The notes: generated by a model not told the origin, from the letters alone. Counted from the first letter of the stretch, positions 19,129-26,030 are shown. The stretch: DNA of 64,000 bases from Anaeromyxobacter dehalogenans 2CP-1 (GCF_000022145.1 NC_011891.1:4012501-4076500), one strand, 5' to 3'. Translations and numbers: made by a program.

Positions 19129-19463
19129 TCCCGCGGTGGAGGGCGCTCGCGGTCGCGGCCGCGCTGCTCGCCGCGGCCCCGGCGTTCGCGGCGAAGAAGG
19201 CGCTCGCGCAGGGCGAGAAGGTCGACCTGAACCGCGCGCCGGTGGTGGAGCTGATGCGGCTGCCCGGCGTCGGCCAGCAGCGCGCGCAGGCCATCGTCGC
19301 GCACCGCACCCGGCAGCCGTTCCGCCGGGTGGAGGACGTGCTCGCGGTGAAGGGCCTCGGCCCCGCCTGGCTCGCGAAGGTGCGGGCCAACGTCACCGTG
19401 GGCAGCGCCGCCGCGCCCGGGGCGCCTGCCGGGGCGCAGCGGACCGCCTCCGCGGGGCGGTGA
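19125..19463 (+). CDS. Secreted helix-hairpin-helix protein (ComEA-like)
   Basis: 112 residues. A signal peptide (WRALAVAAALLAAAPAFA) precedes a tandem helix-hairpin-helix (about 33-90: VDLNRAPVVELMRLPGVG and AVKGLGPAWLAKV), the fold of the DNA-binding domain of competence protein ComEA. It lacks the N-terminal membrane anchor domain of Gram-positive ComEA but matches the short periplasmic Gram-negative type. Role in DNA uptake is plausible from the family, not shown by context. GTG start overlaps the upstream stop. Confidence 0.8.
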   Translation: MIPRWRALAVAAALLAAAPAFAAKKALAQGEKVDLNRAPVVELMRLPGVGQQRAQAIVAHRTRQPFRRVEDVLAVKGLGPAWLAKVRANVTVGSAAAPGAPAGAQRTASAGR

Positions 19464-19836: not shown

Positions 19837-21831
19837 TTGGACTCGAGGCCTCCCCTCGGGCGGCGCGCACGCGCGCTCGCCCTCGTCTTCTCCGCCGTCG
19901 CCGGCGTCGCCTCGGGCGCCGCTGCGCGCGCCGACGATCCGCCCACCAGCGCCGACGCCGGCGCGCCGGATCCCGGCGCCGCGCCGGTGGAGCTCGACGA
20001 GCTCGTCATCCGCGTCCCCGGGGCCGAGGCGACCCGCGATCCCACCGGCGCGGTCACCGTGGTCGAGGCCGGCCGCTACGCGGGCGAGGCCAAGGCGGTC
20101 GCCGAGCTGGTCGCCACCGCCCCCGGCGTGGCGGTCAGCGCGTACGGCGGCCTCGGCCAGCTCTCCACCGTGTCCATCCGCGGCTCGAGCGCGAGCGGCG
20201 TGCTCGTGCTGCTCGACGGGCTGCCGCTCAACACCGCGTTCGGCGGCGGCGTGGATCTGTCGACGCTTCCGCGCCAGTGGATCGAGCGCATCGAGGTGCT
20301 GCGCGGCGCCGAGGGCGCGCACTACGGCGCGGGCGCGCTGGGCGGGGTGGTGAACGTGGTCACGCGCGGCGGCGAGCCGGGGGGCTGGTCGGCCGAGGCG
20401 AGCGGGGGATCCTTCGGCACCGCCGCGGCGTCGGCCGAGGCGGCGGCGGGCGGGGAGCGCTGGACGCTGTTCGGCGCGGCGGGGGCGGAGCGGAGCGACG
20501 GGGACTTCACCTACCGGAGGCGCCCTCAGAGCTCGCTGCCCGGCAGCCCGTACCAGACGTTCACGCGCGAGAACAACGGCAGCGCCCGCGCCGGCGGGAT
20601 CGCGAAGCTCACCGCGCGGCTGGGCGAGCGCCGCCTGGACGCGCTGCTGCAGCTCTCCGGCGGCCGCCGCGAGCTGGCCGGATGGCCCGGCACCGACACC
20701 CCCGACGACTGGCAGCGCGACGCCCGCGCGCTCCTGTCGGTCCGGCTCTCCGGCGCCGGCCCCGCGCCCGGACTCACGCTGGGGGCGCGGCTCACCGGGC
20801 GCGCCGACCTGCTCGACACGCGCATCGGCAGCCTGTCCGGCGGCGACCCGGTGCACCAGCGCGGCGGCGCGGCGGGCACCGAGGCCGAGGCGGTGCTCCT
20901 CCACCCGCACGGCGCGCTCCGGGCCGCGCTGGCCGCGGAGGGCGAGGCGCTCCGCGCCGACGGGCTGGGCGACACGCGGACCCGCGCGCAGCTCTCCGCC
21001 ACGCTCTCCGAGGACGCGCGCCTCGCCGCCGGCCGGGTGCGCCTCTCGCCGGCGGTCCGCGCCGAGCGGGTGGGCCCGTTCGACGGCGTCTCCGCGAAGC
21101 TGGGCGGGAGCGTTCGGGTGGTCGGCCCGCTCTCGGCGCGCGCCAGCGCCGGCCGGACCTTCCGCGCCCCCGGCTTCGCCGAGCTCTACCTGCAGCTGGG
21201 GGGCGCGCTGCCCAATGCGTCGCTCCGCCCCGAGACCGGCCTCTCCGCCGACGCCGCGCTCGTGGCGGAGGGCGCGCGCGGCATGGCGAGCGTGGGCGGC
21301 CACGCGACGCGCTACGAGGACCTCATCGTCTACCAGGCGAGCGCCCTCGGTCGGATGAAGCCCTTCAACACCGGCCGCGCCCAGGTCGCCGGCCTGGAGG
21401 TCGAGGCCGCCACCACGCCGGCGCCGCGCCTGCTCGGCCTGTCGCTCGGCGCCGCGTACACCTACCTGCGCACCGAGACGCTGCGCGGCGAGGCGGCCGA
21501 GGTGGGCCAGGACCTGCCCTTCCGCCCCCGCCACCGGCTGTTCGCGCGCGCCGCGATCGCGCCCGGGCCGGCCGAGGCCCACCTCGAGGCCCACCACGTG
21601 GGCGCGCAGTGGCGGGACGCGCGCAACGCGGACCGCGTCCCCGAGGCGCTGCTCTGGAACGCGGGCGCCTCGGTGCGCCTCGCCCGCCGGGCCGGGCTGC
21701 GGCTCGGGCTCGAGGCGCGCAACCTGCTCGACGACCGCACGCTGACGGACCCCATCGGAAACCCGCTTCCCGGGCGCATGGTGATGATCACCCTGCGCGC
21801 CGGCTCGACCCCAGGAGACCTCACGCCATGA
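19837..21831 (+). CDS. btuB: TonB-dependent outer-membrane cobalamin receptor
   Basis: 664 residues: a signal peptide, TonB-box/plug region (ELDELVIRVPGA; then VSIRGSSASGVLVLLDGLPL and IERIEVLRGAEGAHYGAGALGGVVNVVTR, split here at conserved points) and a beta-barrel with ARASAGRTFRAPGFAELY. The start is TTG at 19837, supported by AAGGAGA ten bases upstream. The barrel ends GRMVMITLR but continues into a short Pro/Asp tail rather than ending at an aromatic residue. Cobalamin specificity is assigned from the riboswitch and btuFCD. Confidence 0.93.
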   Translation: MDSRPPLGRRARALALVFSAVAGVASGAAARADDPPTSADAGAPDPGAAPVELDELVIRVPGAEATRDPTGAVTVVEAGRYAGEAKAVAELVATAPGVAVSAYGGLGQLSTVSIRGSSASGVLVLLDGLPLNTAFGGGVDLSTLPRQWIERIEVLRGAEGAHYGAGALGGVVNVVTRGGEPGGWSAEASGGSFGTAAASAEAAAGGERWTLFGAAGAERSDGDFTYRRRPQSSLPGSPYQTFTRENNGSARAGGIAKLTARLGERRLDALLQLSGGRRELAGWPGTDTPDDWQRDARALLSVRLSGAGPAPGLTLGARLTGRADLLDTRIGSLSGGDPVHQRGGAAGTEAEAVLLHPHGALRAALAAEGEALRADGLGDTRTRAQLSATLSEDARLAAGRVRLSPAVRAERVGPFDGVSAKLGGSVRVVGPLSARASAGRTFRAPGFAELYLQLGGALPNASLRPETGLSADAALVAEGARGMASVGGHATRYEDLIVYQASALGRMKPFNTGRAQVAGLEVEAATTPAPRLLGLSLGAAYTYLRTETLRGEAAEVGQDLPFRPRHRLFARAAIAPGPAEAHLEAHHVGAQWRDARNADRVPEALLWNAGASVRLARRAGLRLGLEARNLLDDRTLTDPIGNPLPGRMVMITLRAGSTPGDLTP

Positions 21832-23276
21832 TCCGGATCCCCCTCCCCGCCCTCCGGGCGGCCCTCGCCGCGGCGGCGCTCGCGCTCGCGGCCTGCAGCA
21901 GCGACCCCGAGATCGTCTGCGCCGCCGGCGAGCAGGTCTGCGGCGGCGCCTGCGCCGCGGTCGAGATCGACTCCTCGAACTGCGGCGCGTGCGGCGCCGC
22001 CTGCGGCGCATACCAGGAGTGCAACGCGGGCGCGTGCGAGTGCGGCCCCGGCACGGTCGAGTGTGGCGGCGGCTGCGTGGACCTGTCCTCGGACCCCGCG
22101 AGCTGCGGCGCCTGCGGCGTCGCCTGCGGCACGGGACAGGTCTGCGCCGGCGGGGTCTGCGCCAGCGCCTGCCCCGGCGGGCAGCGCTCCTGCGGCGGCG
22201 CCTGCGCAGACCTGTCGTCGGACCGCTGGAACTGCGGCGCCTGCGGCGTCCGCTGCGATCGCGGCGAGAGCTGCCGCGAGGGCGCCTGCCGGCCGGACGT
22301 GTACGTGGCCTGCTTCGCCACCGACGACGTCCGCCCCGCGAACGCGGCGCTGCGCGCCGGCCTGCCCCGCGCGGCCGGCGACGGCCCCATCGCGCTGGGC
22401 GTCTCGGCCGGCCGGCTCTGGGCGGCGGCCTCGCTGTCGCACTCGCTCGTGGCCTTCCCGCTCGACCTCGGCGCGGCGGGCGTCGAGACGATGCTCGGCG
22501 GCGGCGACCTCGAGGCGCTGTCGGTCAGCGGCGACCGCCTGTGGGTCGCGAACGCGGCGGCGGGCTCGCTGGTGGTGTACGACGCGTCGGCGCGGCGGGT
22601 GGTGGACGAGGTCGTCCTCGGCACGACCGGTGTGAACCCGCGCTGGGTCGCCTTCGCGAACGGCCGCGCCTACGCGGCCCTGTACGGCCTCGACGCGACC
22701 TCGGGCGGCCAGGAGGTGGCGGTGATCGACCCGGCCACCGGCGAGATCCTGCGGCGCGTCGACCTGCGGGCGCTCGCCGACGCGCCCGGCCTGCCCTTCC
22801 CGGCCCACGCCGTGGTGGCCGGCGGCCGCGTGTTCGTCACGCTGGCCAACCTGCGCCTGGGCGAGTGGGGCTACTACACCGACCCGGCGGGCAGCGGGAA
22901 GCTCGCGGTGATCGACCCGGCAGCGGACGACGCGCTGTCCTCCATCGACCTCGGCGACGGGTGCCTGAACCCGGGCGGCCTGGCCGCGAGCGCCGACGGG
23001 CGCATGCTGTGGGTGGCGTGCGGGGGGAGCGCCGCGGTGCTGCCGGTGGAGCTGGGCGACGCCGGGGTCACGCTGCACGCGCCGGTGGCCGCGCCCGACT
23101 TCTCGGCGCCGGGTAACATCGCGCTGTGCGGCCGCGATGCCTACGTCACCGACCAGTGGTCCGGCTCGGTCTGGCGCTTCGATCCCTCCACCGGCGAGCG
23201 CCTCGCCGCCGGCGAGATCTGCCCGGCCAGCCAGGCGGGCTGGGCCTGGGCCGCGGACGTCGCGTGCGCGCCGTAG
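21828..23276 (+). CDS. Cys-rich beta-propeller lipoprotein in the B12 operon (BtuG-like candidate)
   Basis: 482 residues. The signal sequence ends in a lipobox (LAAC, Cys23). Residues about 31-155 hold three Cys-rich repeats of the form CGGxCxDLSSDxxxCGACGxxC. From ~160 to the end are repeated strands such as AVIDPATGEILRRVDL, ALSVSGDRLWVANAAAGSLVVYD and ADGRMLWVACGGS, typical of a YVTN/seven-bladed propeller. ATG overlaps the btuB stop (ATGA) and the gene overlaps btuF. Bacteroides BtuG is also a surface propeller lipoprotein coupled to BtuB; a similar capture role is proposed here by analogy. Confidence 0.78.
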   Translation: MIRIPLPALRAALAAAALALAACSSDPEIVCAAGEQVCGGACAAVEIDSSNCGACGAACGAYQECNAGACECGPGTVECGGGCVDLSSDPASCGACGVACGTGQVCAGGVCASACPGGQRSCGGACADLSSDRWNCGACGVRCDRGESCREGACRPDVYVACFATDDVRPANAALRAGLPRAAGDGPIALGVSAGRLWAAASLSHSLVAFPLDLGAAGVETMLGGGDLEALSVSGDRLWVANAAAGSLVVYDASARRVVDEVVLGTTGVNPRWVAFANGRAYAALYGLDATSGGQEVAVIDPATGEILRRVDLRALADAPGLPFPAHAVVAGGRVFVTLANLRLGEWGYYTDPAGSGKLAVIDPAADDALSSIDLGDGCLNPGGLAASADGRMLWVACGGSAAVLPVELGDAGVTLHAPVAAPDFSAPGNIALCGRDAYVTDQWSGSVWRFDPSTGERLAAGEICPASQAGWAWAADVACAP

Positions 23277-24178
23277 CCGCCGGGTGCGCCGCGCTGGCGC
23301 TCGCGCTCGCGGCGCCGGCGGCGCGCGCCGGCGGGGTCGCGGACCTGCTGCGCCCGAGCGGCCGCGGCGCCGCCGAGGGCGGGACGGTGTGGGCCGGGCC
23401 CCGGCCCAGCGCGCCGCCCCGGCGCGTGGTGGTGCTCGCGCCGAGCCTCACCGACGTGGTGCTGGCGCTCGGGCTGGGCGACCGGCTGGTGGGCGTGACC
23501 CAGCTCGACGACGCGCCGGAGGTGCGGCACGTGCCGCGCGTGGGCGGCTTCATCGACCCGAACCCGGAGGCGATCCTCGGGCTCCGCCCCGACCTCGTGC
23601 TCTGGATCTCCGACGGCGGCGCGCTCGCGGCGGTGCGCCGCGTGGCCGAGCTCTCGCAGGCGTCGTCGCGCCCGTTCCCGGTGGTCGCCATCCCGGTGGT
23701 GAGCGTGGCCGACGTGCTCGCCACGCCGCGCATCGTGGGCGAGGCGCTGGGCGCGCCGGCCGCGGGGGCGCGGCTCTCCGCGGAGCTCGCGGCGGAGGTG
23801 GAGCGGGTGCGGGCCCGCGCCGCGTCGCTGCCGCGCCGGCGCGCGCTCTTCCTGGTGGGCCGCGAGCCGCTGGTGGTGGCGGGACCGGGCAGCTTCCCGG
23901 ACGAGCTGCTGCGCATCGCGGGCGCCGTGAACGTGGTGGGCGGCTCCCGGCCCTGGCCGGTGTTCCCGCTGGAGCGCGCGGTGGCGCTCGATCCGGAGGT
24001 GGTGGTGGACGGCGCGCCGCAGGAGCCGGCCGAGGGCATCGTCCGCCTGTCCGCGATCCCGGCGGTGCGGCGGGGCGCGGTGGTGCGCCTCCCGGACGAC
24101 GCCCTGCTGCGCCCCGGGCCGCGGATGATCCGCGGGCTGGAGACGCTGTTCCGCGGGCTGCACCCGGAGGCGCGGTGA
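23264..24178 (+). CDS. btuF: Periplasmic cobalamin-binding protein of ABC importer
   Basis: 304 residues. A signal peptide (VAAGCAALALALAAPAARA) precedes a type III periplasmic binding fold: APSLTDVVLALGLGDRLVGVTQ, GGFIDPNPEAILGLRPDLVLW and the C-terminal lobe AGPGSFPDELLRIAGAVNVV. The GTG at 23264 overlaps the previous gene by 13 bases and starts directly at the signal peptide. Adjacent btuC and btuD and the upstream riboswitch define the substrate; by sequence alone it could also be a siderophore-binding protein. Confidence 0.88.
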   Translation: MRAVAAGCAALALALAAPAARAGGVADLLRPSGRGAAEGGTVWAGPRPSAPPRRVVVLAPSLTDVVLALGLGDRLVGVTQLDDAPEVRHVPRVGGFIDPNPEAILGLRPDLVLWISDGGALAAVRRVAELSQASSRPFPVVAIPVVSVADVLATPRIVGEALGAPAAGARLSAELAAEVERVRARAASLPRRRALFLVGREPLVVAGPGSFPDELLRIAGAVNVVGGSRPWPVFPLERAVALDPEVVVDGAPQEPAEGIVRLSAIPAVRRGAVVRLPDDALLRPGPRMIRGLETLFRGLHPEAR

Positions 24179-25221
24179 GCCTGACCCGGCGCACGCGGCT
24201 CGCGCTGGCGCTCGCCGCCGGCGTGCTCGCGATCGCGGTCGCCGTGGCCATCTCCTGCGGGCTCGGCCCGCAGCCCATCTCGTTCCGGGCCGCCTGGGCC
24301 GGCGCCGATCCCGACGCGGCCATCCTGTTCGGCCTGCGGCTGCCCCGCGCGCTGCTCGCGGCGCTGGTCGGCTGCGCGCTCGCCGCGGCGGGCACCGCGC
24401 TCCAGGCGCTGCTGCGCAACCCGCTCGCCGAGCCGTTCGTGCTCGGGGTCTCGGGCGGCGCCGCGCTGGGCGGCTCGCTGGTGCTGGTCGCCGCCGCGGG
24501 CGTGACCCGGCTGGCGGGCCGCGCGGGCGAGGCGCTGGGCGGGGCGCCCCCCGTGGCGGCCGGCGCGGTGGCCGGGGCGGTCGCCGCGACCGCCATCGTG
24601 TTCGGGCTGGGCCGGATCGGCGGCCGCCTGGTGCCCGAGGCCGCGCTGCTGGTGGGCATCGTGTTCAACGCGTTCGCCGCCGGCGTCATCACCCTGCTCA
24701 AGATGCTCGTCCCGCCGGAGCAGGCCGGCCGGCTCATGTACTGGCTGCTCGGCGCGGTCGGCTACGAGGCGCCGGGGACGCTGGCGCTCGGCGCCGTCCT
24801 GGTGCTGCTGTCGGTGGGCGCGCTGGTGGCGCTCTCGGCGCGGCTCAACCTGCTCACGCTCGGCGACGAGGAGGCCGCGTCGCTCGGCCTCGACGTGCGG
24901 CGCGACCGCGCCGCGGTGTTCTTCGCGGCGAGCGCCGCCACCGGCGCCGCGGTGGCGCTGGCCGGCATGGTGGGGTTCGTGGGGCTGATCGTCCCGCACC
25001 TGGTCCGGCGGGTGATCGGCCCCGACCACCGGCTGCTCGTGCCGGCCTCGGCGTTGTTCGGCGCCGCGTTCCTGGTGCTCGCGGACGCGCTGGCGCGCCT
25101 CGCGTTCCTGCCCCTCGGCACCGAGCCGCCGGTGGGCGCCGTGACGGCGTTCCTGGGTGGACCGTTCTTCCTGTGGCTGCTGCGGCGGAGCGGGCGGCCC
25201 GAGGCGGAGGGGGCGCGATGA
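24175..25221 (+). CDS. btuC: Cobalamin ABC importer permease
   Basis: 348 residues with about ten hydrophobic helices, FecCD/BtuC family. LRNPLAEPFVLGVSGGAALG, LGDEEAASLGLDV and GFVGLIVPHLVRRVIGPDHR (split motifs) are the conserved coupling and gate regions. GTG start overlaps the btuF stop (GTGA). It forms the inner-membrane channel of BtuCDF. Confidence 0.92.
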   Translation: MSLTRRTRLALALAAGVLAIAVAVAISCGLGPQPISFRAAWAGADPDAAILFGLRLPRALLAALVGCALAAAGTALQALLRNPLAEPFVLGVSGGAALGGSLVLVAAAGVTRLAGRAGEALGGAPPVAAGAVAGAVAATAIVFGLGRIGGRLVPEAALLVGIVFNAFAAGVITLLKMLVPPEQAGRLMYWLLGAVGYEAPGTLALGAVLVLLSVGALVALSARLNLLTLGDEEAASLGLDVRRDRAAVFFAASAATGAAVALAGMVGFVGLIVPHLVRRVIGPDHRLLVPASALFGAAFLVLADALARLAFLPLGTEPPVGAVTAFLGGPFFLWLLRRSGRPEAEGAR

Positions 25222-26030
25222 GCGAGCCGGCCGGCGGCGCGGGGACGGCGCCGATGGTGGAGGTGCGCGGGGTCACGTTCCGCTACGGCGCCCACGCGGC
25301 GCTCGAGGACGTCTCGTTCTCGGCGCGGGAGGGCGAGTTCGTGGGGCTGCTGGGACCGAACGGCGCGGGGAAGTCCACGCTGGTCCGGCTCATCGCCGGC
25401 CTGGCCGCGCCGGCGCGGGGCACGGTGCGCCTGACCGGCATGGACCCGGCCGCCGCCCCGCGCCGCGCGGTGGCGCGGGTGTGCGCGCTCGTGCCGCAGG
25501 AGCCGCGGCTCGGCTGGCCGTTCACCGTGCGTGAGGCGGTGATGATGGGCCGGGCGCCGCGGCAGGGCCTGCTGGCGGTGCCCTCCCGCTTCGACCACGG
25601 CGCGGTGCAGGGCGCGCTCGAGGCGTGCGACCTCGTGCACCTCGCCGGCCGTCGGCTCGATGCGCTCTCCGGCGGCGAGCGGCGCCGCGTGTTCTTCGCC
25701 CGCGCGCTCGCGCAGGAGCCGCGGGTGCTGCTGCTCGACGAGCCCACCGCGTTCCTCGACCTCGGACACCAGGTGGCCGCCATGCGGATGGCCCGCGTGG
25801 CCGCGCGTGGCGGGCTGTGCGTGGTCGCGGTGCTCCACGACCTCAACCTGGCCGCGGCCGCGTGCGACCGGCTGGTGGTGCTCTCGCGCGGGCGCGTGGT
25901 CGCGGAGGGGGCGCCCGACGACGTGATCACGGCCGAGCGGGTCAGAGCGGTGTGGGAGGTGCCGGTGTGGCGCGGGGAGAACGGCGTCACGGGGGCGCCG
26001 GTGGTGCTGCCGGCGTTGGGGCGGGAGTGA
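25218..26030 (+). CDS. btuD: Cobalamin ABC importer ATPase
   Basis: 270 residues. Walker A GPNGAGKST (46-54), Q-loop ALVPQEPRLGW, signature LSGGERRRV, Walker B VLLLDEPT and a switch His in VLHDLNLA are all present. The ATG overlaps the btuC stop (ATGA). Last gene of the B12 uptake operon. Confidence 0.93.
   Translation: MSEPAGGAGTAPMVEVRGVTFRYGAHAALEDVSFSAREGEFVGLLGPNGAGKSTLVRLIAGLAAPARGTVRLTGMDPAAAPRRAVARVCALVPQEPRLGWPFTVREAVMMGRAPRQGLLAVPSRFDHGAVQGALEACDLVHLAGRRLDALSGGERRRVFFARALAQEPRVLLLDEPTAFLDLGHQVAAMRMARVAARGGLCVVAVLHDLNLAAAACDRLVVLSRGRVVAEGAPDDVITAERVRAVWEVPVWRGENGVTGAPVVLPALGRE

Follow-up and report, generated by a model that had tools for sequence, protein, structure and literature searches.

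What does a large cysteine-rich lipoprotein, encoded between a btuB-like and a btuF-like gene, contribute to vitamin B12 uptake in Anaeromyxobacter dehalogenans 2CP-1? In the window, the whole 64,000-nucleotide stretch of this genome that was analysed, the gene order is riboswitch-btuB-lipoprotein-btuF-btuC-btuD, with every feature on the + strand. The cobalamin riboswitch aptamer (RF00174, 19587..19769; cmscan 74.1 bits, gathering threshold 31.5) is the only one returned by a genome-wide search, which bears out the cobalamin riboswitch operon of the original prediction. Downstream are a btuB-like TonB-dependent transporter with a PF07715 plug and PF00593 barrel (19837..21831; 664 aa, TTG start uncertain), the intact lipoprotein open reading frame (21828..23276; 482 aa), a btuF-like substrate-binding protein (23264..24178; PF01497, 82.6 bits), a btuC-like permease (24175..25221) and a btuD-like ATPase (25218..26030), the last two being open reading frames with homologues at the same position in related loci. 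The starts of the btuF-, btuC- and btuD-like genes were inferred from sequence and probably overlap the preceding stops. The expected overlap of the lipoprotein gene with both neighbours holds for btuB, whose stop it overlaps by 4 nt (ATGA; CCATGATC), while that with btuF amounts to 13 nt only if btuF begins at the inferred GTG at 23264. Just upstream of the riboswitch, the open reading frame translation of 19136-19463 reads as a small exported ComEA-like helix-hairpin-helix protein.

The best solved relatives of the window BtuB are E. coli BtuB (E 1.7e-25) and then B. thetaiotaomicron BtuB3. TIGR01779 is its top-scoring model, at 138 bits under an equivalog cut-off of 599.7 (about 600), and the btuF-like protein scores 71 bits with the NF002894 BtuF model, under its cut-off of 234. 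No match to CbiC was found in a search of this genome, which agrees with the salvage-only status given to A. dehalogenans in a review (PMC11321594). In Bacteroides, BtuG binds B12 in its central cavity and closes on BtuB (PMC6143338, PMC10404256). We consider it probable that the window lipoprotein is a BtuG-like corrinoid-capture partner of the neighbouring BtuB. The protein would be exported and anchored in the outer membrane through a lipidated Cys23, and a putatively disulfide-rich stalk would keep a C-terminal propeller off the membrane. The propeller would bind B12 or other corrinoids and pass them to BtuB for TonB-driven uptake, with BtuF-BtuCD acting afterwards. By analogy with BtuG, we infer that the propeller binds B12 in its central cavity and closes on BtuB, the lipoprotein being surface-exposed and docked there as a lid.

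The lipoprotein opens with a signal peptide (residues 1-22) and a lipobox, L20-A-A-C23 (21828..21896), whose Cys23 is invariant in 35 homologues. Its 31 cysteines comprise the lipidation residue, six in the C-terminal domain and 24 in three 8-Cys repeats, which span residues 31-70 (21918..22037), 72-111 (22041..22160; missing from several homologues) and 115-154 (22170..22289). Together these repeats match the NCBIfam model NF041328 (MXAN_6577-like cysteine-rich protein) at 153.5 bits (cut-off 100, E 3e-45, model positions 3-145 of 145), a similarity that by its score is far beyond chance, and Pfam Stig1 at 55.8 bits (cut-off 24.1). The original description of a lipoprotein with three Cys-rich repeats was therefore correct.

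Where the lipid anchor places the protein bears directly on its proposed role. The lipoprotein export signal of Bacteroidetes has been described as restricted to that group (PMC6143338). In M. xanthus, Lys at +2 marks inner-membrane lipoproteins and Ala at +7 is a matrix signal (PMC3222651). The window lipoprotein has Ser at +2 and Ile at +7 and so carries neither signal, and membrane placement of the family as a whole is ambiguous because Lys is found at +2 in 6 of 56 readable homologues. The main alternative to capture at the surface, which we regard as fairly unlikely, is that the lipoprotein faces the periplasm, where its stalk would tether it while it relays B12 from BtuB to BtuF. This would suit the order btuB-lipoprotein-btuF and the variation at +2, including those six lysines, as well as the fact that the default outer-membrane class of M. 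xanthus has no known surface-export signal (PMC3222651). However, the BtuB-bound propeller whose structure has been solved lies on the extracellular side (PMC10404256), and the lipoprotein-BtuB pair is kept at a reductive-dehalogenase locus (L037/L039, discussed below) where btuF and btuCD are not adjacent, so that BtuB is the constant partner.

The C-terminal 328 residues consist of repeated strands, in which family models give only weak, generic propeller matches. An AlphaFold2 model built from nine aligned sequences (mean pLDDT 84.5, pTM 0.71) places short strands in the stalk and then seven four-stranded blades, assigned by reading the strand list, with the ring closed by the C-terminal strand together with N-terminal ones. 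This predicted seven-bladed propeller (residues 155-482, 22290..23273) is complete and agrees with the propeller first suspected from the repeated strands. In a Foldseek search of the PDB, the archaeal S-layer propeller 1l0q ranked first, and BtuG2, BtuG3 and BtuG1 took 15 of the 17 places at ranks 2-18, or 16 of 17 with the addition of 3dsm, a structure from Bacteroides that the BtuG papers draw on. VIA-align Z scores ranged over 28-35, with 35.2 for 1l0q, 31.5 for the designed propeller WRAP, 30.0 for BtuG2, 29.4 for BtuG3 and 28.5 for BtuG1, and a PDB sequence search with a profile of the 35 homologues gave E 1e-15 for 1l0q and E 3e-8 for BtuG1. At the level of the predicted model, support for the seven-bladed fold is good and BtuG ranks among the nearest matches, but the fold itself is no pointer to B12 because generic propellers tie with or beat BtuG in Z. 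Fold rank was accordingly dropped as proof of B12 binding, both 1l0q and the designed propeller scoring at least as high as BtuG.

Membership of the BtuG family was likewise rejected on the PF16819 (BtuG; DUF5074) model, which has no match in the window lipoprotein at E<=0.1, matches one of the 35 homologues (E 0.013), and is absent from btuB-adjacent loci among the matches listed for 195 Myxococcota genomes. Of the features by which BtuG is recognised, the window lipoprotein does have the seven-bladed propeller, the lipoprotein signal, and adjacency to btuB with riboswitch control. Judged by this sequence test, the Myxococcota lipoprotein is BtuG-like in layout and outside the BtuG family. 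The original suggestion of separate evolution is therefore plausible, given the PF16819 result and BtuG Z scores no stronger than those of generic propellers, but stops short of demonstration, as the propellers are too divergent for ancestry to be traced.

Conservation within the ring points to a long loop in blade 4 (residues 339-363, 22842..22916; LANLxxx..YxxPAGxGxLAxID) as the best candidate functional site. In the alignment of 35 homologues, G355 and G357 are invariant and L339, N341 and L359 are each conserved in at least 90%. Residue-level homology with BtuG1 was considered for this loop and rejected: the HMMER alignment spans it, and BtuG1 lacks NLxxx..PAGPG there. The pocket residues of BtuG2 are Trp194, Trp272 and Tyr316 (PMC10404256). 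P325 is invariant as well. Four propeller cysteines (C162, C379, C398 and C465) are also invariant, which suggests disulfides among them. All 58 propellers compared carry a net negative charge; this is weakly compatible with a cationic ligand and was given no weight in our assessment.

Across 195 Myxococcota genomes, the propeller profile gave 154 matches and the window BtuB, used as query, gave 146. Adjacency to btuB was no criterion in the propeller search, and by coordinate comparison 139 of 150 propeller matches, among those listed, lie directly 3' of a BtuB homologue on the same strand, a count to be read knowing that the profile derives from sequences that turned out to be btuB-adjacent and may miss weak relatives elsewhere. 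Among the remaining 11, reading the locus places BtuB immediately before the propeller gene in four (G002, G004, G144 and G158); in one (G145:C176) BtuB is downstream, and the contig ends before any upstream gene; one is a second stalk-propeller protein of G102 without BtuB, and the others are on short contigs or in loci left unread. A BtuB-like gene is directly upstream of the propeller gene in all 40 loci fetched first. A narrow alignment-based scan of genome contigs recovered eight loci, and a plasmid search found no relatives of the lipoprotein. Of 58 pairs, 38 show the same 4-nt start/stop overlap. In 33 of the 40 loci, btuB has RF00174 immediately in front of it; the seven exceptions are the two dehalogenase loci (L037, L039), two contig ends (L041, L045), a locus with the riboswitch about 2.3 kb upstream (L066), one with it downstream only (L068) and a cobQ locus (L076). 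The riboswitch is also upstream of btuB in divergent clades (L093, L099, L100, L106). The same gene is thus found beside btuB in other Myxococcota, and rather than being spread beside unrelated transporters, which would have refuted the original interpretation, it has BtuB as its partner across the phylum.

Pairwise distances in the BtuB and propeller trees correlate with r 0.87 (permutation maximum 0.15), a value inflated by shared species history, although the placement of paralogues is independent of that number; from these trees, BtuB and the propeller seem to move as a pair. In soil and sediment myxobacteria, a propeller lipoprotein is almost always present beside btuB. Tight one-to-one pairing with overlapping genes would also be expected of a BtuB-specific accessory that binds no corrinoid, such as a factor for BtuB assembly or stability, or a cover that protects the pore from phages and bacteriocins, and the sequence is no closer to BtuG than to generic propellers. 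We judge this distinctly unlikely: to our knowledge, enterobacterial BtuB requires no such factor and manages without one. The nearest functional precedent for a lipoprotein propeller coupled to BtuB is a B12 binder (PMC6143338), which favours corrinoid capture.

Several unusual arrangements were seen among these loci. The one clear orphan, at L104:6903-8744, is the stalk-propeller lipoprotein of G102 without a BtuB neighbour, and its closest upstream neighbour, on the opposite strand, is a ComEA-like helix-hairpin-helix gene. At L102:2-4784 the order is propeller-btuB-propeller, with both propellers belonging to the family of the window lipoprotein. At L059 and L060, one 20 kb region holds three cobalamin riboswitches, of which one is directly downstream of the propeller gene.

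The architecture of the lipoprotein varies across the phylum. Stalk repeats number from one to three across homologues, and in members of families f2, f3, f8 (genus g44) and f11 the propeller follows the lipid-linked Cys almost directly. In L093-L095, L098, L100, L101 and L107 the profile is matched in the order ~157-347 and then 2-157, so that the propeller is circularly permuted and begins at blade 4; these stalkless proteins are still encoded next to btuB. Both arrangements retain the blade-4 loop, as LxNLx(n)[AG]GxGxL. Many stalk-only NF041328 matches occur in Myxococcota, including away from btuB. Because clades with no stalk and a permuted propeller keep the btuB pairing, the conserved unit is the propeller ring beside BtuB, with the stalk a replaceable spacer. 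The idea that the Cys-rich stalk is a distinctive, B12-specific novelty was consequently abandoned, because the module is generic in Myxococcota and is missing from several clades where the btuB-propeller pair persists.

Second pairs outside the btuFCD operon provide a further view of the ligand. In this genome, a second pair, within L037:11-12189 (G000:C1:399010-411188), encodes a lipoprotein 54% identical to that of the window and lies on the same strand behind two reductive-dehalogenase homologues, a permease-like protein and two Fe-S proteins, with a XylR/MobR-type (phenol-type) sigma-54 regulator after the pair. The dehalogenase homologues match TIGR02486 at 135.8 bits (E 3e-39) and 130 bits (E 2e-37), under the 160-bit cut-off. 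The sister genome G031 (L039) has the same arrangement, and no riboswitch was found at either of these two pairs. The 2CP-C genome paper covers these dehalogenases (Adeh_0329, Adeh_0331), and its text does not mention TonB, B12 or cobalamin (PMC2330069). Since dehalogenases require cobamides (PMC11321594), this locus is a second, riboswitch-free corrinoid link and suggests a corrinoid supply reserved for organohalide respiration. Myxococcus-type genomes also have a second pair (L076, L088, L090, L091, L092) at which no riboswitch was found, with a BtuF-like/ABC gene set nearby; in L076 a family search identified cobQ (539 bits, cut-off 273), whose start sequence is also present in L088 and L091, and L076 has a sensor kinase and a sigma-54 regulator, paired, close by. 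In both trees, the second pairs cluster together, separate from the first pairs.

Riboswitch-free pairs are therefore still in a corrinoid-gene context. This bears on the possibility that the transporter-propeller pair handles some other ligand and is only incidentally part of a B12 operon. The low TIGR01779 score and the dehalogenase-locus pair without a riboswitch would fit, but the riboswitch and btuFCD accompany most loci, and the riboswitch-free copies either adjoin homologues of corrinoid-dependent dehalogenases or sit near cobQ, which makes another ligand highly improbable. Overall, corrinoid capture is supported by the lipobox, the fold, the gene overlap, riboswitch control, the pairing with BtuB throughout the phylum and the corrinoid context of riboswitch-free copies; weighing against it are the generic propellers (1l0q Z 35, WRAP Z 31), the PF16819 non-match, the +2 Lys in 6 of 56 and the orphan. 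A broader scenario, to which we give somewhat less than an even chance, is that a propeller lipoprotein became a corrinoid-capture lid for BtuB in Myxococcota by independent recruitment, in convergence on BtuG, that the pair travels as a two-gene cassette, and that the second A. dehalogenans cassette, in the reductive-dehalogenase cluster, serves organohalide respiration as its own source of corrinoids.

BtuG has been reported as exclusive to Bacteroidetes (Wexler et al.; PMC6143338), and lipoprotein-assisted TonB uptake of small molecules has been proposed as a general Bacteroides feature (PMC10404256). Our literature search, with most subscription journals outside it, returned only a DUF4465 paper for BtuG and Myxococcota together and nothing that describes a propeller paired with BtuB in this phylum. 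If our reading is true, lidded vitamin transporters would extend beyond Bacteroidetes to soil and sediment predators and to metal or halogen respirers, the unnamed MXAN_6577-like family would gain a predicted function, and it would be possible to test one way in which an organism auxotrophic for corrinoids provides its dehalogenases with them.

Among known systems, the closest in layout are BtuG1, BtuG2 and BtuG3 of B. thetaiotaomicron, which are likewise lipoproteins with a seven-bladed propeller, encoded beside btuB and under a cobalamin riboswitch (PMC6143338, PMC10404256). The window lipoprotein differs from them in sequence (11-17% identity) and in phylum, and it has a Cys-rich stalk, or in other clades no stalk and a circularly permuted propeller; its B12 binding and its complex with BtuB are putative. 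MXAN_6577-like (NF041328)/Stig1 proteins share the N-terminal lipoprotein signal and the three 8-Cys repeats over the whole model, but that model covers the stalk only (145 positions), is silent on function and on the propeller, and has stalk-only matches away from btuB. The 1l0q YVTN/S-layer propeller and YncE-type propellers are closest in fold and, in the case of 1l0q, give the strongest PDB profile match, yet they are not BtuB-paired lipoproteins, and we know of no link between them and corrinoids. Finally, BtuH and BtuJ (DUF4465) are also accessory B12-binding lipoproteins of B12 loci (PMC8941943, PMC13398666), but they are built from other domains and are not propellers, with DUF4465 itself present in some Myxococcota.
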